Virus record (IMG/VR): IMGVR_UViG_3300021959_000116
Location: 1 to 40,534 of that record
Length of the DNA: 40,534 nucleotides
Source of the DNA: a virus
Reading direction: 5' to 3' (one strand)
Numbering within the stretch: position 1 is the first letter of the stretch; each line of letters opens with the position of its first letter. The translations under genes were made by a program, and so were the position numbers. Shown one piece after another: positions 2 through 29,717 of this stretch. Below the pieces are notes generated by a model. It was given only the letters and a program-made list of their open reading frames with translations, was not told the DNA's origin and searched no databases.

Positions 2-1171
2 CATCTTATAGAAGGAGCTACGAGAGAGGAAGGATTTGATGACTCCTGGGACTTGATTGATCCTCATTCTGGTAGAGTTACAAAGACCGTTTCTGCAAAA
101 ACACTTTGGGTAAAACTTATTCAAAATCGTGTTGAAACTGGCGAGCCTTATATTATGTTTAAGGATACCGTCCAGAAAGCTTTACCAGAGTGCCAGAAGG
201 ATCTAGGACTGCAAGTACATCACTCCAATCTTTGCAGTGAGATTACTCTTGCAACGGATGAAGAGCGTACAGCAGTATGTTGTCTATCAAGTGTAAACTT
301 GGAAGAATTTGATGAGTGGCAACACGACCCAAATTTTATTCCTGATCTAATTGCAATGCTTGACAATGTACTTACACACTTTATTGATAATGCTCCCCGT
401 GAGCTTTGGAGAGCGGCATATAGTGCAATGCAAGAAAGAAGTATTGGTCTTGGCGCAATGGGCTTTCATGCATATTTACAGAGACATCATTTGCCTTTTG
501 AAGGAGTTATGGCAAAGAGCGCAAACATGAGAATGTTTCGCCATATAAAATCGGAGGCACTCAATGCAACTCGTAAACTCGCTGAAGAACGCGGGGAAGC
601 TCCTGATGCAAAAGGTTATGGAGTTCGTAATGTTCATTTGCTGGCTGTTGCTCCTAATGCTAGTAGTTCTATTATATGTGGTAACACTAGTCCCAGTATT
701 GAGCCTTATAGGGCTAACGCATTTACTCAGAAGACTAAGTCAGGCTCAAGCTTACAAAAGAATGAGTACCTGGAACATATTCTTCAAGAAATAGGAGAAG
801 ATAACGATGAAGTATGGAAAAGCATCATTACAAACAATGGCTCAGTTCAGCATCTTGACTTTTTGGACGAAGTTACTAAAGACGTCTTCAAAACCGCAGT
901 TGAAATTGACCAAAGATGGGTTATTGATCTTGCAGCCGATCGACAAGAACATATCTGCCAAAGTCAGTCTCTAAATGTGTTTTTTCCTGCAAACGTATCA
1001 AAGCAGGAACTTCACGCTGTTCACATGATGGCATGGAAAAAGAAAGTGAAAACTTTGTATTATTTACGAAGTGAAGCATATAAGCGTGCTGAAAATGTAT
1101 CTGACGAAGCTCTTCGACAGTATATCTTTGAAAGCATGGATGAAGAGGGGTGCCTTGCTTGTGAAGGATAA
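2..1171 (+). CDS. nrdA: Ribonucleoside-diphosphate reductase, large (alpha) subunit, class Ia; 5' end outside window
   Basis: The frame is open from base 2, so the gene starts upstream and only about the C-terminal half is present. The protein reduces ribonucleoside diphosphates to deoxyribonucleotides together with NrdB. Visible active-site features are the N-x-C-x-E motif (NLCSE, codons at about 227-241), matching Asn437/Cys439/Glu441 of E. coli NrdA. The partner cysteine lies in AVCCLSS (equivalent of Cys462). The radical-transfer tyrosine pair is in KTLYYLRS. The C-terminal redox pair is CLAC right at the end (GCLACEG), which shuttles electrons from glutaredoxin to the active site. The pair is closer than in E. 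coli (CESGAC). The next gene, a glutaredoxin, overlaps its 3' end, and nrdB follows, which is a typical phage dNTP cassette. Identification is secure; the missing 5' part means the allosteric ATP-cone region cannot be judged. Confidence 0.97.
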   Translation, partial: HLIEGATREEGFDDSWDLIDPHSGRVTKTVSAKTLWVKLIQNRVETGEPYIMFKDTVQKALPECQKDLGLQVHHSNLCSEITLATDEERTAVCCLSSVNLEEFDEWQHDPNFIPDLIAMLDNVLTHFIDNAPRELWRAAYSAMQERSIGLGAMGFHAYLQRHHLPFEGVMAKSANMRMFRHIKSEALNATRKLAEERGEAPDAKGYGVRNVHLLAVAPNASSSIICGNTSPSIEPYRANAFTQKTKSGSSLQKNEYLEHILQEIGEDNDEVWKSIITNNGSVQHLDFLDEVTKDVFKTAVEIDQRWVIDLAADRQEHICQSQSLNVFFPANVSKQELHAVHMMAWKKKVKTLYYLRSEAYKRAENVSDEALRQYIFESMDEEGCLACEG

Positions 1172-1391
1172 GATAACAATATGGGGCACAGAAGATTGTC
1201 ATTTTTGCCATTTGGCAGAAGAGCTAGTAAAAAGTAAAGGGTTTGAGATAGAGAGTATCGAAGCAAGCCATGATATGATAAAATTTACGGAATTGTTCCC
1301 TGGAGTTAAAACAGTACCTCAAATACTTATTGGAGATACTTGGATTGGGGGATATAGCGACTTGAAAGAAGTCTTAGAGAGCGTTGAATGA
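1161..1391 (+). CDS. Glutaredoxin-like electron donor for the RNR
   Basis: A 76-residue thioredoxin-fold protein with the redox motif C-H-F-C near the N-terminus (WGTEDCHFCHLAEEL), a TVP cis-proline segment (VKTVPQILI) and the GG-Y-D motif (IGGYSDL) that bind glutathione in glutaredoxins. It most likely re-reduces the C-terminal CxxC of NrdA. I chose the GTG at 1161. It puts the first beta strand (KDKITIWG) directly at the start, as in other small glutaredoxins, and a GA-rich GAAGAGGGG lies about 10 bases upstream. An in-frame ATG at 1140 would add seven residues and is the alternative. The gene overlaps the nrdA end by 11 bases and its TGA overlaps the nrdB ATG (ATGA), indicating translational coupling. 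Confidence 0.85.
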   Translation: MKDKITIWGTEDCHFCHLAEELVKSKGFEIESIEASHDMIKFTELFPGVKTVPQILIGDTWIGGYSDLKEVLESVE

Positions 1392-2347
1392 ATTTATTGA
1401 CAGAAAGAGAATATTATAAGCCTTTTAATTATCCTTGGGCTTATGAACACTATAAGACTCAGCAGCATATGCATTGGCTTCCTGACGAAGTAAATCTTGC
1501 TGATGATCTTCGAGATTACCGAGATAAGTTGACTCCTGAGAATCGTCGACTTATCAATCAGATTTTTAGATTCTTTACACAGGCTGATGTAGATGTTTGT
1601 TGTGGATATGCAAAGCACTATCTTCCTACATTTAAGCAACCTGAAGTAAGAATGATGTTGTCTGCTTTTGCAGCAATGGAAGCAGTGCATCAAGAAGCTT
1701 ATTCACTCTTGCTAGAAACTCTTGGCTTTGGGGATGACGAGTACCAAAAGTTTTTTGAACATAAAGCAATGATGGATAAGCATGAGCATCTGTCCAATTT
1801 TGGAATGGATACTCCAATGAATATCGCAAAAACTATGGCGATTTACTCTGGATTTACAGAAGGAGTGCAACTGTTTAGTAGTTTTGCGATTCTACTCAAC
1901 TTTCCAAGACATAACTTGATGAAAGGCATGGGACAGATTGTAACATGGAGTATTCGTGATGAAACTCTTCATGTTGAAGGCATGAGCCAGTTGTTCCGAA
2001 CTTTTATTAAGGAGAATCCAGAGCTATGGAATGATGATTTAAAATATGAAATTTACTGTGCTGCAGAGCGAACAGTAGAGCTCGAAGATGCTTTTATTGA
2101 TCTTTGTTTCGAAGGTGCAGAAGTACCGGATCTAACAGCAGAAGAAGTAAAAGAGTATATTCGATATATTGCGGATCGTCGACTTCTTGGTCTGGGAATG
2201 AAGAAAATCTTTAGCAGCGACAAAAATCCTCTACCTTGGCTTGACTATATGTTGAATGGTGTAGAGCACACTAACTTTTTTGAGAATCGTGCTACTGAAT
2301 ATGCTCGTGCGAGCACAACAGGCAATTGGCAAGATATATTTAAATAG
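1388..2347 (+). CDS. nrdB: Ribonucleoside-diphosphate reductase, small (beta) subunit, class Ia
   Basis: A complete 319-residue ferritin-like protein that houses the diiron centre and tyrosyl radical used by NrdA. All expected ligands are present and correctly spaced against E. coli NrdB: Asp67, Glu98, His101, Glu158, Glu192 and His195. The radical tyrosine is Tyr105, four residues after His101 in EAVHQEAY. The metal-ligand spacings 67-98 and 158-192 equal those of E. coli 84-115 and 204-238, while the loop between helices is about 29 residues shorter. The protein is therefore a standard Tyr/diiron class Ia enzyme and not a radical-less Ic or Ie type. The start ATG overlaps the glutaredoxin stop. 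Confidence 0.98.
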   Translation: MNLLTEREYYKPFNYPWAYEHYKTQQHMHWLPDEVNLADDLRDYRDKLTPENRRLINQIFRFFTQADVDVCCGYAKHYLPTFKQPEVRMMLSAFAAMEAVHQEAYSLLLETLGFGDDEYQKFFEHKAMMDKHEHLSNFGMDTPMNIAKTMAIYSGFTEGVQLFSSFAILLNFPRHNLMKGMGQIVTWSIRDETLHVEGMSQLFRTFIKENPELWNDDLKYEIYCAAERTVELEDAFIDLCFEGAEVPDLTAEEVKEYIRYIADRRLLGLGMKKIFSSDKNPLPWLDYMLNGVEHTNFFENRATEYARASTTGNWQDIFK

Positions 2348-21100: not shown

Positions 21101-22489
21101 GCTAAATTTATCTTTTATGGTTGCGCTAAGATTTGCTCCTGTAATGGAAGACGCTGCTTGCAGAGTAAACTTGCCTCTATCAGTTTCTCCTCCAGTACCT
21201 CCATTCGCACGAACAGGCAGACCCGCATCTCGAGTCAATCTAACTATAGTGATTTTAAAATCATCAAAGGGTTTGAATCTGTCCAATCCAATTATGTGAT
21301 CGAAAGAAACCGGAGCAGTAGTTTGATCAGTATGAACTACTTCACCTCCATGATTAGAGAATAAAGTTATAGGGTCATTAAAACTTGCTTCTCCAGGTTT
21401 TTTAAGCTCTAGTAAGAAAACATAAATTGCACTTGCAGAAGATTTATCACCATTTTCATTATTATGAGTTATAAGTGCAGAATAATTTATTCGGATATTT
21501 AATTCACTTACCTGCTTTACTTGAGCAGCATTTAATCCAAATCCCATACCTCCCGCAGGAGAGCCACTAGAAATTACTAAAGCTGCATTTCCTACGTCTG
21601 CTGGGAAAGACTGATTTTCTGGATAACCAGTTGTATTATATAAAGTTAAACCATAAGTACTATTTGCATCGGTAGATTGCTGTAAACTTCTTGCATTCCC
21701 ACTACCCGTTATAGTAACTCCGCCAGATAAGCTATTAACTTGCTGCATTGGAGCTTGAGTTAGTGTACCTTTTCTAAATTGAAGAGTCGATCCATCAAAT
21801 TTAGAAATATTATTTACTATACCAGTAGTAGTGCTTTCTCTTGCTGGAGCATCCGAAAAAAAGAAATTAACATCTGTTAAATTACTCGTATGAAAAGCAC
21901 TATCTATTGTAAAAGTATCAGAGTCTGTACGTCCTGTTACCTCTACTGCTTTAATTAAAGTAATTGTCCAGCCTGTGCTCGTAATTAGTTGATTACTTAT
22001 ACTTCGAGAAGAAACATATAGAGTAACAGTTGTTCCAGAAGTATATTTAGCATCTGCATAAAAGGATACTCCATCACTACTTTTTACTTTTACATAAGAT
22101 AAATTATCCGTAAGAGTGCTAAAATCGGAGTCGATTCCTGTGCCCGAAAGAGATAAATAAGTTTCATTTACTCCAGAAAAACTAATAGGTGAACGAACAA
22201 GGTTACAGCCTGTAATAGATTCTACTTCAATATGGGCAAATTTTCCAATGTCTTTGTCAGTTAAAGTAACGCCCGAAACATCCATAGATGTAGCATTTGC
22301 AGTATAGCTTAAAGTGGGCTGTTTAAAAACACTTGTTTGCTCTTCGTTATACGTACCAACTAGACTGGAGTTTTCAAACGGAACATCGTTAATATAAACA
22401 GAATTTTTACCGTTTACAAGTCCACGAATAGGCCCCTCACAAAGTAAGTCTACAAGTCCTATATACTGTTTTGATGATCCTCCGGCCAT
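15134..22489 (-). CDS. J: Tail tip attachment/host specificity protein, lambda gpJ-like, 2451 aa
   Basis: The protein starts at ATG 22489, overlapping the gpI stop (TAATG). A TTG 12 bases upstream in frame is less likely. The N-terminal MAGGSSKQYIGLVDLLCEGP-IRGL is diagnostic for gpJ, and the core tail-tip region (NPAWVFYDIVTNNRYGAG, then MATIFTGMLYWLDGKL and RPGDIINVQD) spans residues about 450-760. An FN3-type domain (about 985-1085) follows. Further out are a possible FCCH-like insert (about 1220-1335), several Ig-like domains, a collagen-like Gly-X-Y run (about 2055-2085), the gpJ phrase NGGKITTGTITAEKL (about 2200) and a beta C-terminus ending VILGKLS. It closes the tail tip and contacts the receptor. 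It is more than twice the length of lambda gpJ (1132 aa), mainly through added Ig-like and fibre-like modules. Confidence 0.95.
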   Translation of the reverse strand: MAGGSSKQYIGLVDLLCEGPIRGLVNGKNSVYINDVPFENSSLVGTYNEEQTSVFKQPTLSYTANATSMDVSGVTLTDKDIGKFAHIEVESITGCNLVRSPISFSGVNETYLSLSGTGIDSDFSTLTDNLSYVKVKSSDGVSFYADAKYTSGTTVTLYVSSRSISNQLITSTGWTITLIKAVEVTGRTDSDTFTIDSAFHTSNLTDVNFFFSDAPARESTTTGIVNNISKFDGSTLQFRKGTLTQAPMQQVNSLSGGVTITGSGNARSLQQSTDANSTYGLTLYNTTGYPENQSFPADVGNAALVISSGSPAGGMGFGLNAAQVKQVSELNIRINYSALITHNNENGDKSSASAIYVFLLELKKPGEASFNDPITLFSNHGGEVVHTDQTTAPVSFDHIIGLDRFKPFDDFKITIVRLTRDAGLPVRANGGTGGETDRGKFTLQAASSITGANLSATIKDKFSYPYTAHAAVSFSSKTYDSLPSRSYLLQGLKVQIPTSYTPREYTDNGVAVYENYWNGEFKTTQLDSNTSVPLLYYTDNPAWVFYDIVTNNRYGAGEWIDADFINKFALYRIAKYCDELVDDGNGGTEPRFRANLYLAKSTEVYKVLKDMATIFTGMLYWLDGKLTAVQDVPSEPIYNFSKANVIDGVFNYESTGRKTRVNQVVVTWNDPIANYEPVPLIVEDREAIVKAGRIISQNSVAMGATSEGQALRYGRWKLWTAQNQKEVVSFKTGLQGAFIRPGDIINVQDRDRYGVDYSGLTSSTTSATASSVTLDRKLTNVANASKHKFSTIVDSYAAFYTGLNPVTIDGETYNKGDRILGQVYLYDPDTNTYGLDSITTEKDASNAFQNSTGTPLQTEWKPYTYVLTKVVTLDNTGDVSVVTIDTTVDASIPAIERTNYAGDAPALGTLWVLQALDANDQNILGSKKEYRVLGIQHEDNKNTYSITAVEYYIEKYDAVDKDYELGTTPSNVFPTVEDPDEEVPAPDNIYVALDSDSAKPGEEIIVTWGTPQETFLDLLDTVRSRNYSFIDKYELYHNIPHIESPIVTSRLSYRFENLEDGLYTFRVRAVSRKQNYSDFVSTQYEVNDVYGSIVPRIVGGLPKGIVANSQISYTYDANASSQQGGTEAVRFIEGSSATGFSIGNLLSGDNSPSASLSNINVSGLVDKVAQEWYYLLFDGGSGNLLYWDTDTLQTLPFYNKIPGGSWRGSAISGWSSKTGGYTLAADSTRITFNSSNSSLKIGDIIAFENINEVEAVSINSVTSTSGSYRIGILTNFNNYLIANGDKVKLENATFTGSGTDFNNKEYYAKRISTTVIELYKDEALSENVTSSDIGKTWDEGGWVRRIGVKGAKIIAKVSNTEAILDRSFSSALTSSNAYYVRNFQPDFKDDAVFGRVRWNSTDAQTLVNSFSVDSFIQLDPSLTSGKAVLVTPSLETIRYETSGDGTTVTQTSEFESLTATVTALGFIKPQFRLTSYRVNGENTTDLNETISTSFAEPDEVGGFTKEFTVNNDNDVDYGTGADAGAPIVITAEVREANNVGINAFGTGDIIRVKDGAAGTQGRTVELTAEDYTIVYDADGENPQFEGNDSNLTLTSTSRNFGANPLFRITVDSNNAPATIFSNWVNGTSGTDNSIYSIYIIPPTLKPSYSSKVIEVQVAERPENWNAGTQEGQDSQGNAIAPTVGASDSISILYLQQGEGGYAIANSNFAHSYSTDSKGEFTTIDSNNNNIIANSGTTIEVLIGGTRGTYRGTSNGTASSGGFSGTLDPGDWYVVSAVSSTSEFSAGTITASNNIITISPVQVDTSIGYGEDDETITWTLRVGTRAGTTIDLTTIQSLSKSRRGTDSTVIELTNDAETVGGTENQALSNLSLSTTAQIFAGVADVSSSWNFTATAATGITVNTPGTGTDGNIFTVTALSSSFTSGNVVITAAAKSTGDFAGSANKTANFTITKVNNGEDGVSYRITTSDTAVVYDPNSDPVSWSPTSVTFSASKVTPDGASSFTTGYWKLGGSNQGQASSVSSGTISSTSGNITAQLYLDSSYTQLVDTESVPIISKGTNGTDGADGNDGTNGTDGAAGDPGPRSVFAYIYYQSSSTSAPTIPALSNFIPNFTNGSVSSQDTNWSTNTPTFQAGNTNKYWYFTFTATESGTYANGAYPSVTKSSSPSAGSSAIQGIGFTGLVTFTGDNLTDGTSSYNPATVINSNTTTINGGKITTGTITAEKLFFYDSTNSRINISSFYNDEGFIDSTGLSSYLEVSTAKSTYLAITAGTGFTAGLTTATSGANLTNFTGIATAAGIAYEADLYDPANPSGGIDATFKSALTAAGLSLSADFFDGSGNINSTFSANLTAAGLFLDSSLDANSDSGLTVVNNKLKLTSSSLILTSSQLTDAGGLTSSTSISAGKISLTSGSLDFTTGSATTNNSIVLESTTNQNRIVIYSGTTPRVILGKLS

Positions 22490-23223
22490 TATGGACTCCA
22501 AGTAGGTAGATCAGTTCTCTGAATTTTACCCCAATCAAAATCAGGAAGTGTATCAGGAGCGCCATAGCCGCCGCCACCTCCACCACCTCCGTCCATCGGA
22601 GGCACTACTGAATTTTGACCAGTTTGAACATAGTCTATAAACTGTCTTTCTGCATTTTTTATTTCAAAAGAGATAGGACGCCCAGGAATTCTGAGCTGCC
22701 CATAGAGTATTGGTACAGGGTCTCCTTCTATTATATTTTGAGACGATCCCTGAAATAGGTAACTTTCATCTTGTTGTGTATCTACAGAGGGATCGGGTGC
22801 CATCAGTTCTTGAATACCTGTTATAGCTAGATTAATTGCAAGAGTTGCTGCAATAGTCCCCCAAGTTGTTAGGGCTCCTTCGAGTATAAATATATTAGCC
22901 GGATTTGATATAATTAATGCTGCTATGGCAATTGCTGCAAATATTTTTCCAATTCCTCCTTTAGATCCTGCAGGAACTGCTTGTATCGTAAACGAACCCT
23001 TAGGATATTGCAATAATAATCTTTCTTCGTGATTCAGCGGTTGGCTATCTACAAAACAAATAAACCCAATTCCTTTCTCATGGCACTCTATTAGATATTG
23101 TCGAAATTCTGAAAAATTTAATTCTAAGCACTGTAACGCTTCCCTAAAAGAAGAAACATTCATTTCAAATTCGTGCCCAAATTTATCTGCAATTTCACCT
23201 TCTAAATATATTTTACGCAGCAT
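22489..23223 (-). CDS. I: Tail assembly protein I (lambda gpI-like), 244 aa
   Basis: The N-terminal 80 residues form the ubiquitin-like beta-grasp domain of the family (LRKIYLEGEIADKFG, then FREALQCLELNF). A Gly/Ala/Ile-rich hydrophobic section (AAIAIAALIISNPANIF, about residues 93-140) follows, then the conserved ILYGQLRIPGRPISFEI and a Gly-rich stretch near the C-terminus. gpI acts with K, L and J in tail-tip assembly. AGGAAT stands about 10 bases before the ATG. The gene overlaps the K end by 11 bases and its own stop overlaps the J start. Confidence 0.9.
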   Translation of the reverse strand: MLRKIYLEGEIADKFGHEFEMNVSSFREALQCLELNFSEFRQYLIECHEKGIGFICFVDSQPLNHEERLLLQYPKGSFTIQAVPAGSKGGIGKIFAAIAIAALIISNPANIFILEGALTTWGTIAATLAINLAITGIQELMAPDPSVDTQQDESYLFQGSSQNIIEGDPVPILYGQLRIPGRPISFEIKNAERQFIDYVQTGQNSVVPPMDGGGGGGGGYGAPDTLPDFDWGKIQRTDLPTWSP

Positions 23224-23902
23224 ATCTATAAATTCCTACTAAATGCTCTGCCCAGAAAGGATATAAGTTTTCTCTGCAAGACAGTCTGTTTTCTGCATGA
23301 TGAAAGAATACATCATTTCCCAGGTAGACTCCACAATGGTTTGCTACCTTTCCTCGTACTTTAAAAATAAGTACGTCATTTTTTTGTAAATTATTTACTT
23401 TTTTATGGTTCCAATTTAATATATTTTCTTCTGTAAAATAGTCTAAGTTATTTTTCTGCCACCAGTTATCTTCGAAAGGTTCTCTTGCGGGAATATTTAT
23501 TCCTTCTTTTAAAAGCCAATCTCGAAGTGCTTCAAAACAATCTTTTACGCCAAATTCATACTCTCTACCAATTAAGGGATATGCTGCTTTTTTAGGTTCT
23601 ACAATATTTAGTTCCATCTCTGGATAACTAAAAATATAGTAAGGTATTCCTAGAGCATTACAGCAATCAATATCATGTTGAGAAGCTTCATTTGATGCAT
23701 CGGGATGGCTATGTACAATTGCAAATATATCAGCTCTTTTCTTTACATCTAAGTACTGTTTAGAGGAAAAAATAAAACTTTCAGTATCCTTTGCAATATT
23801 TGAACAGGGAAACCATTCTTTCTTTCCTTTTACAATTCCGATTATACCACAACCTTCTCGAGGATACTCTTTTTCAAAGTGCGCTTGTATTCTCTCAATC
23901 AC
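23213..23902 (-). CDS. K: Tail tip protein K: JAMM peptidase plus NlpC/P60 domain, 229 aa
   Basis: Two enzymatic domains are visible. The N-terminal JAB/MPN domain has Glu16, H64-S-H66 followed by seven residues, Ser74, two residues, Asp77, which is the full zinc metallopeptidase motif. The C-terminal NlpC/P60 domain has Cys122 (GVKDCFEAL), His189 (ANHCGVYLG) and a further His at 201/202, the expected Cys-His catalytic set for peptidoglycan peptide cleavage. In lambda, K is required for tail tip assembly, and this protein may open the cell wall during DNA entry. Start is GTG at 23902 in a GTGA overlap with the L stop, with GAAGAAG just upstream. Confidence 0.95.
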   Translation of the reverse strand: MIERIQAHFEKEYPREGCGIIGIVKGKKEWFPCSNIAKDTESFIFSSKQYLDVKKRADIFAIVHSHPDASNEASQHDIDCCNALGIPYYIFSYPEMELNIVEPKKAAYPLIGREYEFGVKDCFEALRDWLLKEGINIPAREPFEDNWWQKNNLDYFTEENILNWNHKKVNNLQKNDVLIFKVRGKVANHCGVYLGNDVFFHHAENRLSCRENLYPFWAEHLVGIYRYAA

Positions 23903-24882
23903 TTAAACTTCTTCGACCCGGGGAAGCCTCCAAAAGGTAAAGGCACTTCTGTATTTAAAGTAGTATCTGTAGCATTTCCTTGAAAACGAATTTTACAAGA
24001 ATTCATAGTTTTTCCACATAAATCAATTCGCTTCCAATACTGTCTATTTGTTTCAGGATTTTTCCCGTAGTTATCAAAAAGTGCTTCCCATATCTGAACT
24101 CTACTTGTAATTGCATTCGTTGTTTTTACTATATCTCCTGCAGAATAACCATTGGGATTATTATATGTTGCGCTCCAAACATTTATAGTGCCTGTTATTT
24201 CTGTGTCGTCTTTTCGAAAAAAGCTATGCTGTTCACTTTCTTTATATCTCCAAGTACAGCCGCCGCCAAAGCCTAAATCTCTTCCTTGATATTGCCAAGG
24301 GCAGTACTGTCCAATAACTTCTCTGGCAGGAATTCTTACTCTCTCTAAATCCATTGGGGAAGCCAGCTCAAAAGTTACAAAAATATTATTTTCAGAAGAA
24401 ATCCTATCTATATAATAAGTTTGCGAAGGTAGTTCGTCAGGAGTGGCTGCGTCTGTATTACAATCAGATAAAAAAGCTTGCCTATAAACTACACGGGTTC
24501 CAATTAAATCATCGTTTCTTTCAAAGGGAAGATTTAAGTTTGCATCGTTTCGTATACTTTGCAAAACAGTTTCACTGCTATCTCGAGTTTTTGTAAGTAC
24601 AGGAATATTTGCAACAGTTAAAGTAGGTCTTGCAATTGCTCCAGAAGATGCAATTTCTATTCCAGTTATCTGAATTGGAATTGCTTCATAGTCATTTTGT
24701 GCAAACTCTATTTTATTTCCTGCTTGCTCTAAATCGGTACCATTAAAAAGATAAAAAGTTCCTGCAAGATCACCAGAGTCATATCCTGGAAGAGTTATAT
24801 CAAATAACTCTACAAGAGAGTCTAAGTTTCCATCCCCATCTACTATTTCTTGCTTTTGTACGGTATCTACTAAGTCTGTCAC
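23899..24882 (-). CDS. L: Minor tail protein L (lambda gpL-like) with an inserted Trp-rich module, 327 aa
   Basis: Typical gpL layout: a beta-rich N-terminal domain (DSLVELFDITLPG, ARPTLTVANI) and a cysteine-rich C-terminal domain with Cys194 (YCPWQYQG), Cys209 (GGGCTWRY), Cys289 (DLCGK) and Cys296 (NSCKIRF), the four ligands of the family's iron-sulfur cluster. Between the second and third cysteines sit about 65 extra residues with the pattern W-SATY, GYSAGDIVK, V-IWEAL and NRQYWKRI, which resembles a small carbohydrate-binding (CBM5/12-like) fold. Start is GTG at 24882 overlapping the M stop. gpL lies at the tail tip near J. Confidence 0.92.
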   Translation of the reverse strand: MTDLVDTVQKQEIVDGDGNLDSLVELFDITLPGYDSGDLAGTFYLFNGTDLEQAGNKIEFAQNDYEAIPIQITGIEIASSGAIARPTLTVANIPVLTKTRDSSETVLQSIRNDANLNLPFERNDDLIGTRVVYRQAFLSDCNTDAATPDELPSQTYYIDRISSENNIFVTFELASPMDLERVRIPAREVIGQYCPWQYQGRDLGFGGGCTWRYKESEQHSFFRKDDTEITGTINVWSATYNNPNGYSAGDIVKTTNAITSRVQIWEALFDNYGKNPETNRQYWKRIDLCGKTMNSCKIRFQGNATDTTLNTEVPLPFGGFPGSKKFK

Positions 24883-25277
24883 GGCTCATAAACTCTCTTT
24901 AAAGTTGTTGTAAGTGTATGCAATTCGGTATTAATATAATTAATATTATACTCTTCTGACAATACTTTAATTGTTACGTCTGTATCATCGTACTCTGTAA
25001 TTACTAACTCAAAATGTTTACCAGCTTGTCTATTTAAGAATGCTGCAAGCTTATTTATTTCTGCTCTCGAGCGATTTGAAAATTTTACATTAAAAGTTTC
25101 ATCAGTAGGATTTATTCCATTTTTTACTCTTTGAGAATATCCATCTCCAAATTGAGCAGTAAGAATTCGTTGCTTTACTTGTCTTGTAGAGTTTCTATCT
25201 ACAGCAATTTCAGTAGCAGAAGTAGGATTTGTTCCATCATAGCCTCCTACAGGTATTTTTATTTTATAGACTGCCAT
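24879..25277 (-). CDS. M: Minor tail protein M (lambda gpM-like), 132 aa
   Basis: The signature of the family is clear: QRILTAQFGDGYSQRVKNG followed by NPTDETFNVKFSNRS and the FLNRQAGKHFELV segment, i.e. the distal tail / tail-tip ring protein that connects tube and tip. The length is similar to lambda gpM (109 aa). Start ATG overlaps the tape-measure stop (TAATG), and its own stop overlaps the L start (GTGA). Confidence 0.92.
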   Translation of the reverse strand: MAVYKIKIPVGGYDGTNPTSATEIAVDRNSTRQVKQRILTAQFGDGYSQRVKNGINPTDETFNVKFSNRSRAEINKLAAFLNRQAGKHFELVITEYDDTDVTIKVLSEEYNINYINTELHTLTTTLKRVYEP

Positions 25278-28200
25278 TAGGATACTCCGTTCGGATTAAG
25301 AATGCCGCCCTGTCTTTTCTGATTTAACAATTCTTGCTGTACGGCACTCGCAATAACTCTTCCTAGATCCATTCCTTGCTGGTCTCCTTCACTATTTTGA
25401 TTAGTATTGCCATTGCCATCAATTGAAACATTTACCGTAACATTATTTTGTTGACCCATTCCTCGACCCATACTGACAGGAATTGACTTACCATCAGGAA
25501 GAGGAACAATTGCTTCATTATACTTACCTTCGCCAACAAGACCTACTGTAGGACTTTTTGCGATTCCTCCATTTGCATATGCTGCGGAACGAAAGCCACC
25601 TTTTGCAATTCCGCCGTTGGCAAAGAAAAGGCCCGCAATAGTTCCAAATAAACCAGCACCACCGCCCCCACCTCCGCTAAAGAGTCCCATAATTCCATTT
25701 AAAATATCGCCAAACATTTGATCGAAGCCGCCTAAAGCTCCCATGAAAACATCGCCCAGTCCCTTTAAGAAAGGGGCTTCTCCACTAAAAAGTCTTTCTA
25801 AGGAATCTACAAAATTTCCAAAAATTCCACCACTAGCGCCGCGTTCGGCTGACATACCTTCACCAGATGCAGTGGTTTTTCCTGCACCTGGTTTAAAGAA
25901 ATAATCTAAAATACTTCCTGCTTTTTTATCGCCAGTAGATTCAGAACCAGAGCCTCCTTTAGCTATATCATTTATCATATCATCAATAGACTTTGAAGAA
26001 ATATTACTACTAGTTACAGCGGATTCAGTGCTTAATCCCTGTTTATGCCCATCTATTATTGCTTGTCTTACTACTTCTGCACCTTCCACGTGAGCTGTTT
26101 TAACACGGTTAGAAGCAGCATCTCCAAAAATGGCAGTCGAAAGTTTTTCAGAAAGATTTTTTGCAATACTTTGTGCTATAGACTCAAGAGTTGCTTTTGC
26201 AATATTTGCAATTGCTTGCTTAAAACTGGTCTCTTTTCCTGTTATTAAATCAGTTAGTCCTTTTGTTACCCCACCCTCGAATGCGCCTTTTGCAGCAACT
26301 TCCATTTGAGAAAGTAGTGTTAACTGTTCTTGTAAAATATCACTTTTCTGACCAAGAGTATCAATTTCATCCTGCAAAAGTATAAGAGTATTTTGTTGAG
26401 TAGGTGTAGCCTCTTCAGCTTGTTGTTTAATTAGGGCTTCTAAGTTTTGTTTTTCTCGTAGCTTATCATTAATTGAAAGTTGAATACTTTCAATCTGCTG
26501 CTCTTGCTTTAATCTTTGAGCCTGTAAAGGAGTTGCTTGAGCAAGCGAAGCTATGTATTTTTGTTCTAACTTTGTTTTTTCTCTTGTTGCTATAAATTCT
26601 CTTTCTCTCATATTTACAAGAACTTCTCGCAAAGCTTTTGACTCATTTAGTTTTTTAATCTCAGTATCTGTCATTTTTAAAACATCTTCAGATGCCTTTA
26701 TAGTTGCATCTAAAGCTTGAATCATAGGATCAAACTTACTTGTTTGTACTAAACTGCCCATAAACTGAGTTTGTAGTTCTAATTGATTTTTTAAAGCTGA
26801 ATTAAATTTAGCTCCTGCTTGACCAGCTTCTTGAGCTGCACTTACATATTGAAGAAACTGCTCTACAAATTCTTCAGTTCTAAACTTTTCGTCAGCACTG
26901 CCCATTCCTATTTTACCAGCTATACTTGCTAATTTTGTCCCGGTTTCACCAAGAGCATCTTCTGAGTTTTTAAATATTTCATAGTAGTATTGAGCGGTTT
27001 TATATGCTTCTGCTCTTAATTCTTCATTCGGACTAAGAAGTGCGGTTTTTAAACTTCCTACATCTATATTCGCAAGAACGTTTCCTGCAAACTCCGCTCC
27101 TGCTGCACCACCTTTCATGGTGTTTTTTGTCATTTCTGCAATTTCTTCATTTATGCCCTTTAGGCGACTTTGAAGAACTTCTGCTTTGTCTATTTCAGCT
27201 TGCTCCATTAGACGAAGGCTTTTTTGCTCTGCAGTTTCAAAGAACTCTTTTATTTTTGTTATAGCAATTTTTATTAGATCAATTAATAACAAAAATATAC
27301 CAATCCAACCTATAGCCGCCATAGCCCTATTTGCAAAAGTTACAAAACCTGTAGTCATTGCTTTCATGGAAGCAATAGCAGAAGCATACCCTGCTTGCAT
27401 CCCTGTCCATACTAATTTTGTTCCAGCCGCAAAAGTTTGCCAGTTTAAAAGCATTAATTTACTACTTCTTGCGTTATCTGCTACCATTAGTTTTAGATTT
27501 TTTGCAAGATCTGCTCTCTGTGCTGCATTAAGTCTTTTATATTCGCCTTGATTTGCTTCAACAGCTCTCAACATACCTGCGGCTTGCCGCTCAGAAGGGG
27601 TTCCGCCACTTTGTAAAATCTCTAAACCAGAACCTTTTCTAGCATTTAAATTTTCTACAGTCTCTCTTGCAGCGGCTGCTGCTTGAGATCTAACATCTTG
27701 TTGTGCTTTTGCTAATTTTTTTACTTGCACAATCTGTTTAGCATACGCTCTAGTGGCTGCATTAGATGCTTCTTTTGCTTCGTCTGCAGCTACTCTTGCC
27801 GCTTCTCCCATGTCGCTAAGGCCTGGAATGATTGCTTTAAGTATAGGAACTGCTAAAAGTCCTAAAGCTACTGCCAAAGAACCTACATTTTCAGTAAAAA
27901 AATCAAATACAGGCCCTAAAACTTTGGCCAACCCCTCCTTAAAAGGTTTTAAAAGATTATTCTCAAAAGCAATACCAAGTTTTGCTACAGAGTTTCCTAA
28001 CTTTTCCTGTTCTGTTAAAACTGCAGAGTATTTTTGCTCTGCCTGCTCAAGAACATCATTTGCAACTGCTTGACTTTTTTCAAACTGAGTAAGATTTTTT
28101 ACATCTTTACCAATTGCATCTGCGTACTTTTGACTAGCATTTTCCAGTCTTAAAATAATACCTAATTCGTCTAATAGTTCTGGTTCTGCTTTTGTAACAC

Positions 28201-28741
28201 CTCGAACTAAACGATTAAAGGAGTCTGTAACATCTCTTCCAAGAATTGCGGAAGCGTCTCTAGCAGCTGTTCCTAGTCTTGTTAGTTGATCTGTTGATAG
28301 CCCCGCAGCTGATCCAATTGCTGCAGCTTGAGCAGCGTCAGCAAAACTAATTTGAGCATTTGTTGCTGCAACTATATCTTCTGTAAGAGTTTTTATAGCT
28401 ACACCCGTGGATCGAGCATAGGCTGCTTGTCCCGACGCGAGTACTTCAAAGTCTGCAGCTGTCTTTAAAAAGTTAAAAGCTGCTGTAATTGCAAAAACTT
28501 GAGCTGCAAGTGTCGCATAAGCAGGAACAAGACCCCCGGAGATGCCTTGTGCCATTTTTGAAAAGTTTTTAGTAGAGTTAGCAGATGCCTGAGCAGCACC
28601 TTTAAGATTTCTATCCGTAGTGCGAGCAGACTTTCCAGCCTTATCTAAGCCTGCGGCCGCTTTTTCAGCATTTTGTCCAACTATTTTAAGATTACCTTTG
28701 TCGGTAACCTTAATAGTTAAATTAATTTCATTTCCTGCCAT
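25277..28741 (-). CDS. Tail tape measure protein, 1154 aa
   Basis: Long, helical, Ala/Lys/Gln-rich protein with the usual order: an N-terminal region of aligned helices (AEKAAAGLDKAGKSARTTDR, LVPAYATLAAQVFAITAAF), hydrophobic segments at about residues 290-312 and 478-500 (IGWIGIFLLLIDLIKIAI), a long coiled-coil about 640-880, and a Gly/Phe-rich C-terminus with LFANGGIAKGG and a final GNGNTNQN region. It sets tail length and is ejected into the host envelope. At about 0.15 nm per residue, a tail of roughly 170 nm is predicted (inference). It starts on the stop codon of the GT frame (TAATG). Confidence 0.95.
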   Translation of the reverse strand: MAGNEINLTIKVTDKGNLKIVGQNAEKAAAGLDKAGKSARTTDRNLKGAAQASANSTKNFSKMAQGISGGLVPAYATLAAQVFAITAAFNFLKTAADFEVLASGQAAYARSTGVAIKTLTEDIVAATNAQISFADAAQAAAIGSAAGLSTDQLTRLGTAARDASAILGRDVTDSFNRLVRGVTKAEPELLDELGIILRLENASQKYADAIGKDVKNLTQFEKSQAVANDVLEQAEQKYSAVLTEQEKLGNSVAKLGIAFENNLLKPFKEGLAKVLGPVFDFFTENVGSLAVALGLLAVPILKAIIPGLSDMGEAARVAADEAKEASNAATRAYAKQIVQVKKLAKAQQDVRSQAAAAARETVENLNARKGSGLEILQSGGTPSERQAAGMLRAVEANQGEYKRLNAAQRADLAKNLKLMVADNARSSKLMLLNWQTFAAGTKLVWTGMQAGYASAIASMKAMTTGFVTFANRAMAAIGWIGIFLLLIDLIKIAITKIKEFFETAEQKSLRLMEQAEIDKAEVLQSRLKGINEEIAEMTKNTMKGGAAGAEFAGNVLANIDVGSLKTALLSPNEELRAEAYKTAQYYYEIFKNSEDALGETGTKLASIAGKIGMGSADEKFRTEEFVEQFLQYVSAAQEAGQAGAKFNSALKNQLELQTQFMGSLVQTSKFDPMIQALDATIKASEDVLKMTDTEIKKLNESKALREVLVNMREREFIATREKTKLEQKYIASLAQATPLQAQRLKQEQQIESIQLSINDKLREKQNLEALIKQQAEEATPTQQNTLILLQDEIDTLGQKSDILQEQLTLLSQMEVAAKGAFEGGVTKGLTDLITGKETSFKQAIANIAKATLESIAQSIAKNLSEKLSTAIFGDAASNRVKTAHVEGAEVVRQAIIDGHKQGLSTESAVTSSNISSKSIDDMINDIAKGGSGSESTGDKKAGSILDYFFKPGAGKTTASGEGMSAERGASGGIFGNFVDSLERLFSGEAPFLKGLGDVFMGALGGFDQMFGDILNGIMGLFSGGGGGGAGLFGTIAGLFFANGGIAKGGFRSAAYANGGIAKSPTVGLVGEGKYNEAIVPLPDGKSIPVSMGRGMGQQNNVTVNVSIDGNGNTNQNSEGDQQGMDLGRVIASAVQQELLNQKRQGGILNPNGVS

Positions 28742-29585
28742 TAGCCGCGCACATTATGGGTGTAGTTTTTTCCACCTCCTGCAGACTTAGCTTTACGCTC
28801 TTCTGCTTTACGTTTTTTATCTGCTTCTTCTGCTCTGTAAGATATGAGAAGGTTCTCATAAATTTTTAAAAAGAAAAATACTTCTTTTTGATTTTCAATT
28901 TTGTATATTTTAAATATATACTCTAAACTATTCCAGTCTTTTCCTAAATAGGTTCCCGACATTCCATCCCAGCGATCAGACAGTAATCCATATATAAAAA
29001 ATGCCACTTGAACTTCCTCCGGAAAAGAAGAAGACTCGAGCGGCATTTTGGCTGGGTCAGGCTCTTGGCCTAACTGCTCACACATACGTAGATATTTTTC
29101 TACATCTACCTGTGAGCTTTCTCTTACGTATTTTTCAAGTAACTGTCGAACTTCAGTTACTTGTTGCTCGTAAAATTTTCAAGGTCACCTACTGATTCCG
29201 TCACCCATGTATCAAAGTCACTTGCATTCTTCATAAGAAGTTCTGCATTTTCTTGAGTATACATTAATTCATCATCAGGATCTTGTCCAGAAATATCAAC
29301 CAAAAGAAGCTCTTCTAGGTATCGAAATTTCAGTCCTTTCCATCCTTTAATTACTGCATTACAATATTCTGTTAAAAATTTTTCTTCATCTAACTCTTCT
29401 TCCGGCTGTCTTGTTTTTCTATTAAACTTTGTAGTAAGACAACGCTTTCGAAGTTTAATCAGCTCTTCTCTTGCCAAGTAGCAAAGATCTACTTTCATTC
29501 CTGAGTATCCAGGAAAGTCAATTGTTACTGTTTTACTTGGAGTCATAAGACTCGCGAGAGAGATAGGCTCTTTTTTGTCTGTCAT
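28741..29585 (-). CDS. GT: Tail assembly chaperone GT, made by -1 ribosomal frameshift (281 aa)
   Basis: The second frame (T) is open from 29178 to its TAA at 28741 and has an internal ATG only at 29085, with no Shine-Dalgarno. Just at the point where both frames are open, G reads AAT-TTT at an AAATTTT slippery heptamer (29178-29172), followed by a strong hairpin. After slipping back one base, codon 138 of G is followed by 143 residues of T: YEQQVTEVRQLLEKY, then MCEQLGQEPDPAKMP, a conserved-looking AFFIYGLLSDRWDGMS region and a basic KKRKAEERKAKSAGGGKN tail. In lambda-like phages GT binds the tape measure and recruits tube protein. The start is the ATG of G at 29585; the product spans both frames and is not a single uninterrupted reading frame. 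Confidence 0.88.
29136..29178 (-). other. Programmed -1 frameshift signal: slippery heptamer and hairpin
   Basis: Reading the - strand, A AAT TTT in the G frame (29178-29172) fits the X XXY YYZ rule. After an 8-base spacer, CAAGTAACTG (29163-29154) pairs perfectly with CAGTTACTTG (29145-29136) around an 8-base loop. The G stop codon TAA (29159-29157) lies in the 5' arm. The T frame is closed by TGA immediately upstream (29181-29179), so the overlap window fits the slip point tightly. Confidence 0.9.
29157..29585 (-). CDS. G: Tail assembly chaperone G, 142 aa
   Basis: An acidic helical protein in the position of lambda gpG, between the tube protein and the tape measure. Visible segments: SLASLMTPSKTVTIDFPGYS, EELIKLRKRCLTTKFN, a charged middle EEELDEEKFLTEYCNAVIKGW (split by the gene's own numbering near residues 60-80), DISGQDPDDELMYTQENAEL and a C-terminal SDFDTWVTESVGDLENF. 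Most ribosomes are expected to stop at the TAA at 29157. A minority slip into the T frame. AAGGAC precedes the ATG. It is the first gene after promoter 29624-29652. Confidence 0.88.
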   Translation of the reverse strand: MTDKKEPISLASLMTPSKTVTIDFPGYSGMKVDLCYLAREELIKLRKRCLTTKFNRKTRQPEEELDEEKFLTEYCNAVIKGWKGLKFRYLEELLLVDISGQDPDDELMYTQENAELLMKNASDFDTWVTESVGDLENFTSNK

Positions 29586-29623: not shown

Positions 29624-29652
29624 ATTATATCGAAGGCCAGGAAAAATGTCAA
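29624..29652 (-). promoter_or_regulatory. Consensus sigma70 promoter before the tail chaperone/tape-measure block
   Basis: On the - strand TTGACA (29652-29647), 17 bases, TATAAT (29629-29624), with GTTAAAAATAATTC upstream of the -35. It sits directly downstream of the tail-tube terminator (29673-29698), so transcription is reset here. The expected start is about 30 bases before the G ATG. Confidence 0.85.
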
Positions 29653-29672: not shown

Positions 29673-29698
29673 AAAGAAAAAACCCGCCGAAGCGGGTT
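29673..29698 (-). terminator. Intrinsic terminator after the tail tube gene (UUCG loop)
   Basis: In the - strand transcript, AACCCGC pairs with GCGGGTT around a UUCG tetraloop closed by C-G, followed by TTTTCTTT. The hairpin begins about 20 bases after the tube protein stop codon at 29718. UUCG with C-G closure is an exceptionally stable loop. Confidence 0.93.
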
Positions 29699-29717
29699 TA
29701 AGTAGGTAATTTTATAA

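Follow-up and report, generated by a model that had tools for sequence, protein, structure and literature searches.

The window, i.e., the whole stretch of viral DNA that was analysed (40,534 nucleotides; IMG/VR record IMGVR_UViG_3300021959_000116), carries two overlapping open reading frames, G and T, between its major tail and tape measure genes, with T in the -1 frame relative to G. Profile searches placed the major tail protein gene first, followed by G/T, with the tape measure gene directly downstream (Table 1); the tape measure protein is the expected client of a G/GT chaperone. Matches to G were found in 856 phage records. The promoter candidate upstream of G probably drives a transcript covering G, T and the tape measure gene. 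A sigma-70 consensus with no more than one mismatch was also present within 250 nt upstream of G in 39 of 97 relatives with an AAATTTY slip site, compared with 0 of 73 control windows.

Table 1 Features of the G/T region and its surroundings in the window
Feature	Position	Strand	Evidence
Gene G, tail assembly chaperone, 142 aa	29157..29585	-	PHROG 313, E=6.6e-11
T frame (-1), 143 aa after the predicted slip	28741..29172	-	PHROG 3914 tail assembly chaperone, E=6e-21
Tape measure protein gene	25277..28741	-	PHROG 3779 tape measure, E=1.3e-38
Candidate sigma-70 promoter, perfect consensus TTGACA-17-TATAAT	29624..29652	-	Consensus match
Intrinsic terminator, between major tail gene and G	29680..29699	-	
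Shine-Dalgarno-like AGGTGA, 6 nt upstream of heptamer	29185..29190	-	
TGA in T frame, directly upstream of heptamer	29179..29181	-	Direct reading
Slippery heptamer A_AAT_TTT, G frame, X_XXY_YYZ phase	29172..29178	-	Direct reading
Spacer, 8 nt, ACGAGCAA	29164..29171	-	
Hairpin 5' arm CAAGTAACTG, containing G stop TAA (29159-29157)	29154..29163	-	Covariation
Hairpin loop, 8 nt, AAGTTCGA	29146..29153	-	
Hairpin 3' arm CAGTTACTTG	29136..29145	-	

Both G and T belong to the T5-type chaperone family, as demonstrated by profile matches of the two halves to PHROG 313 and PHROG 3914, the same profiles that are matched by T5.143 and T5.142. T5.143 and T5.142 align to the first and second half, respectively, of the 258-position PHROG 313, therefore the profile itself joins G and T, which hints at in-frame G-T fusions in other phages. 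A predicted structure (pLDDT 82) had 3klu (YqbN, E 0.39) as its best PDB match and 2ob9 (HK97 chaperone, E 2.5) as a weak fourth, neither of them significant.

The locus resembles lambda gpG/gpGT and other tail-chaperone frameshifts of dsDNA phages in being flanked by the major tail and tape measure genes, and lambda gpG/gpGT also in its -1 direction, in a T that has no start of its own and in two predicted products with a common N-terminus. However, lambda uses the heptamer GGGAAAG rather than AAATTTT, and the window differs in having a hairpin that contains the stop. Its G and T have no detectable similarity to the lambda proteins, which fall in different PHROGs and gave no significant BLASTP match. 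The original prediction had called the locus lambda-like, a description that suits the mechanism but not the proteins. Further downstream, the tail tip genes (22489-25277) match minor tail families of the lambda M and L types and include an NlpC/P60 plus JAB protein resembling lambda K; lambda-type tail tip genes beside T5-type chaperones suggest a mosaic tail module. On the strand opposite to the structural genes (53-2347, plus strand), ribonucleotide reductase-like subunit ORFs with a glutaredoxin-like ORF between them were recognised by eye from their translations.

Predicted slip site and hairpin in the window and its -1 relatives

The original prediction proposed a -1 slip at AAATTTT, in phase with G and followed after an 8-base spacer by a 10-bp hairpin, and all of these elements are present on the minus strand at the positions proposed. 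Direct reading also agreed with it that the stop of G sits in the 5' arm of the hairpin, whose 10 base pairs include no mismatch, and that the T frame is closed by a TGA just upstream of the heptamer. Slippage would yield a GT of 281 aa with its junction at Phe138-Tyr139, both values being those predicted. The further claim that slippage could occur only here stands in so far as this is the sole X_XXY_YYZ heptamer in the overlap, but the overlap of G and T spans about seven codons. A second AAATTTT, at 29381, is out of phase with G.

Folding of the 66-nt region yields -16.6 kcal/mol, a z of -3.85 relative to dinucleotide-shuffled sequence. However, slippery heptamers followed by a stem of at least 8 bp occurred 6 times on the minus strand, where a Markov null for the 40 kb gave about 6.4, and with a stem of at least 10 bp about 0.7 would be expected per strand. 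The pattern is therefore near chance level, and rarity within a single sequence was dropped as an argument; the window alone is suggestive rather than proof, and the case for a frameshift rests on its relatives. A permissive Rfam search returned only matches below the gathering scores, the best of which (atpB, E 0.027) was disregarded.

The comparison covered 233 loci, taken from IMG/VR, GTDB genomes, phage records and the window itself and representing 162 distinct regions, of which 126 have T in the -1 frame and 36 in the +1 frame. An in-phase X_XXY_YYZ heptamer is kept in 125 of the 126 distinct -1 regions (113 AAATTTT, 3 AAATTTC and 9 GGGAAAC), the remaining one having a broken GAATTTT (L215). 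The codons GAA AAT TTT are nearly invariant, i.e., the slip site avoids synonymous codons that these genes do employ at other positions, GAG, AAC and TTC accounting there for 23, 29 and 14% of use. Similarly, 112 regions have Lys as the final codon of G, which lies within the 5' arm, and 111 of them use AAG, although AAG accounts for 26% of Lys codons. Counting against the frameshift reading, the T codons from the slip to the first ATG are under only moderate constraint. Of 117 relatives, 79 have AGGTGA or AGGAGA 6 nt ahead of the heptamer (a mean z of -0.82 relative to synonymous shuffles), modest support for an element that may be an extra stimulator. A freshwater-type subgroup (L130, L132, L133, L142-L144, L146, L149 and L151) lacks AAATTTT and has GGGAAAC instead, placed one codon further upstream. 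In E. coli, UUY is an A-site codon prone to shifting, and R_RRU_UUY is a named exception to the rule against mixed motifs (PMC4066793).

The hairpin persists as well, with an uninterrupted stem of 7-13 bp in 115 of 116 AAATTTY-type regions, nearly always beginning 3-9 nt past the heptamer; stimulatory hairpins generally begin 5-8 nt downstream of the site (PMC4066793). Its 5' arm has a core, CAAGTA, fixed by AAG-TAR, and the 3' partner lies at varying distances, giving two main stem registers and a third, with a different stem sequence, in a freshwater subgroup; on the tree the register switched about 10 times. Where the stop is TAA it pairs with TTA, and where it is TAG with CTA (31 G-C, 12 A-T, 7 G-U and 1 mismatch). 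This covariation between the third base of the stop and its partner is significant when relatedness is left uncorrected (Fisher p=3e-6), while tree-independent pairs changed only in the same way and were too few for significance; at the next base pair the tree-independent count was 7 to 0 (p=0.016). In position and in its compensatory changes the stem agrees with a stimulatory hairpin, which is expected to start about 5-8 nt downstream. Native folds were more stable than T-synonymous shuffles where the site is AAATTTT (mean z -2.16), whereas neither the GGGAAAC group (-0.56) nor the +1 group (-0.50) showed this, which indicates that the stem goes with the AAATTTY site. A search among the relatives for a broken heptamer or hairpin alongside intact G and T, an outcome that would have spoken against the frameshift, found two exceptions among 117 members of the AAATTTY group, L215 and L174, the latter with a poor stem of 6 bp; in the same comparison most of the GGGAAAC subgroup had no strong hairpin.

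A probable -1 frameshift and its alternatives

Conservation, covariation and the missing T start strongly support a -1 frameshift into a tail-chaperone extension, as originally proposed, and judging from these comparisons the marine phage of the window almost certainly makes G and GT by programmed frameshifting of the lambda G/GT kind. G would be translated in the normal way until, at A_AAU_UUU, the hairpin 8 nt downstream held up a minority of ribosomes. These could slip back by one base, re-pairing from AAU to AAA and from UUU to UUU, and in this way bypass the stop of G, which the stem contains, and continue through T. We infer both the slippage and its rate from this arrangement. By analogy with lambda, G and GT would then act as chaperones of the tape measure protein while the tail is assembled.

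T could instead be an independently started gene, e.g., from ATG 29085, with the heptamer and hairpin incidental. A 114-aa ORF does begin at that ATG, and T5-like records annotate T as a separately started gene, but 122 of 125 relatives have no start with a Shine-Dalgarno sequence in the first 45 T codons, a result that bears out the earlier claim that T has no start of its own. Furthermore, homology in T begins at the slip point, even in comparison with T5-like phages, and the heptamer and stem are constrained at the nucleotide level, which makes an independent start very improbable. It is less far-fetched, although still unlikely, that the heptamer alone drives slippage while the hairpin has another task, such as blocking a cryptic start, stabilising the mRNA or providing stop-codon context. 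The GGGAAAC relatives are mostly without a strong stem, so a stem is not always needed; however, nearly all AAATTTY members have it where a stimulator would lie, and its weakness where the heptamer type differs is what would be expected if it boosts a particular site. Transcriptional rather than ribosomal slippage would have an A/T run to act on at AAAATTTT, but the runs here are only four long, which is short for polymerase slippage, and the GGGAAAC and AAATTTC relatives, together with the kept stem, fit ribosomes better; we regard this origin of the fusion as scarcely credible.

Probable opposite frameshift direction in T5-like relatives

The predicted ribosomal -1 site of the window belongs to a known kind; what was not expected is that its T5-like relatives appear to shift in the opposite direction. 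All 36 distinct T5-like (Demerecviridae) regions, which include T5 and cover at least eight named genera, have T in the +1 frame. The T5-type chaperones of this family (T5.143/T5.142) share with the window homologous G and T, a similar gene order and the same invariant Phe codon. They differ in frame and in having UUU_CGN without the heptamer or a conserved hairpin, whereas the sites in the window and its aquatic relatives are A_AAU_UUU or G_GGA_AAC. An in-frame UUU_CGU or UUU_CGA falls on the family-invariant Phe codon in all 36 regions; in T5 (AY543070, minus strand) it reads ACT_TTT_CGT, the TTT beginning at 97074. T-frame codons of T5-like regions that lie past the stop of G but ahead of the annotated start of T show differences of 0.099, 0.036 and 0.237 at positions 1, 2 and 3, i.e., they evolve as coding sequence. 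A +1 shift at UUU_CGN seems to be used in L116, L236 and other Demerecviridae loci, whose records list G and T as separate genes, and none of the T5-like records examined annotates a joined G-T product. A -2 shift was considered and disfavoured, since re-pairing of the Phe tRNA would then be poor (CUU or ACU), whereas +1 re-pairing from UUU to UUC is perfect.

UUU_Ynn has been reported as prone to +1 shifts in bacteria (PMC5009743), and the +1 site of influenza A PA-X is UCC_UUU_CGU (PMC3498833). The latter is found unchanged in Pectobacterium phage DU_PP_V, and the T5-like phages as a group read UUU_CGU or UUU_CGA where the shift would take place. Virus and product are unrelated, only the decoding site is alike and it is absent from the window itself; the resemblance is presumably convergent.

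As the relatives of the window are -1 and all 36 T5-like regions are +1, the direction appears to have changed once in the chaperone family. A tree of 160 fusions, which is unrooted, requires no more than one change, with an SH-aLRT of 100% on the branch separating the groups; long branches leave the order within the +1 side unsure. A combined -1/+1 alignment was abandoned as a search query because its conservation was too low. To judge from the sequences of L144 (AACTTTTCG) and L085 (AACTTTCGA), altering a single base of the U run could be sufficient to switch direction: L144 reads AAC TTT TCG and L085 AAC TTT CGA, with the T codons TTC GAR kept. We consider it probable that homologous chaperone pairs reversed direction at one Phe codon and that T5 would make a T5.143-T5.142 fusion by +1 frameshifting. 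The opposite direction is strongly predicted rather than demonstrated. No precedent for such a switch in homologous tail chaperones was found in the open literature searched, while the apparent indifference of Listeria phage structural genes to +1 or -1 shifting (PMC5009743) offers a parallel.

The site in the window is a further, well-supported example of AAATTTT with a hairpin within a known class, and the frameshift reading recovers a predicted GT that gene callers overlook. The same open literature held no described T5 frameshift besides a statement in the Sugarland announcement that its chaperone, like that of T5, has no predicted frameshift signal (PMC6256483), which a +1 fusion in T5, if true, would contradict. 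Beyond this +1 prediction for T5, a classic laboratory phage, the larger value of the analysis is evolutionary. The fusion has been kept while the slippery sequence, the stimulator and the direction vary, which suggests selection for the production of GT rather than for any particular means of producing it.
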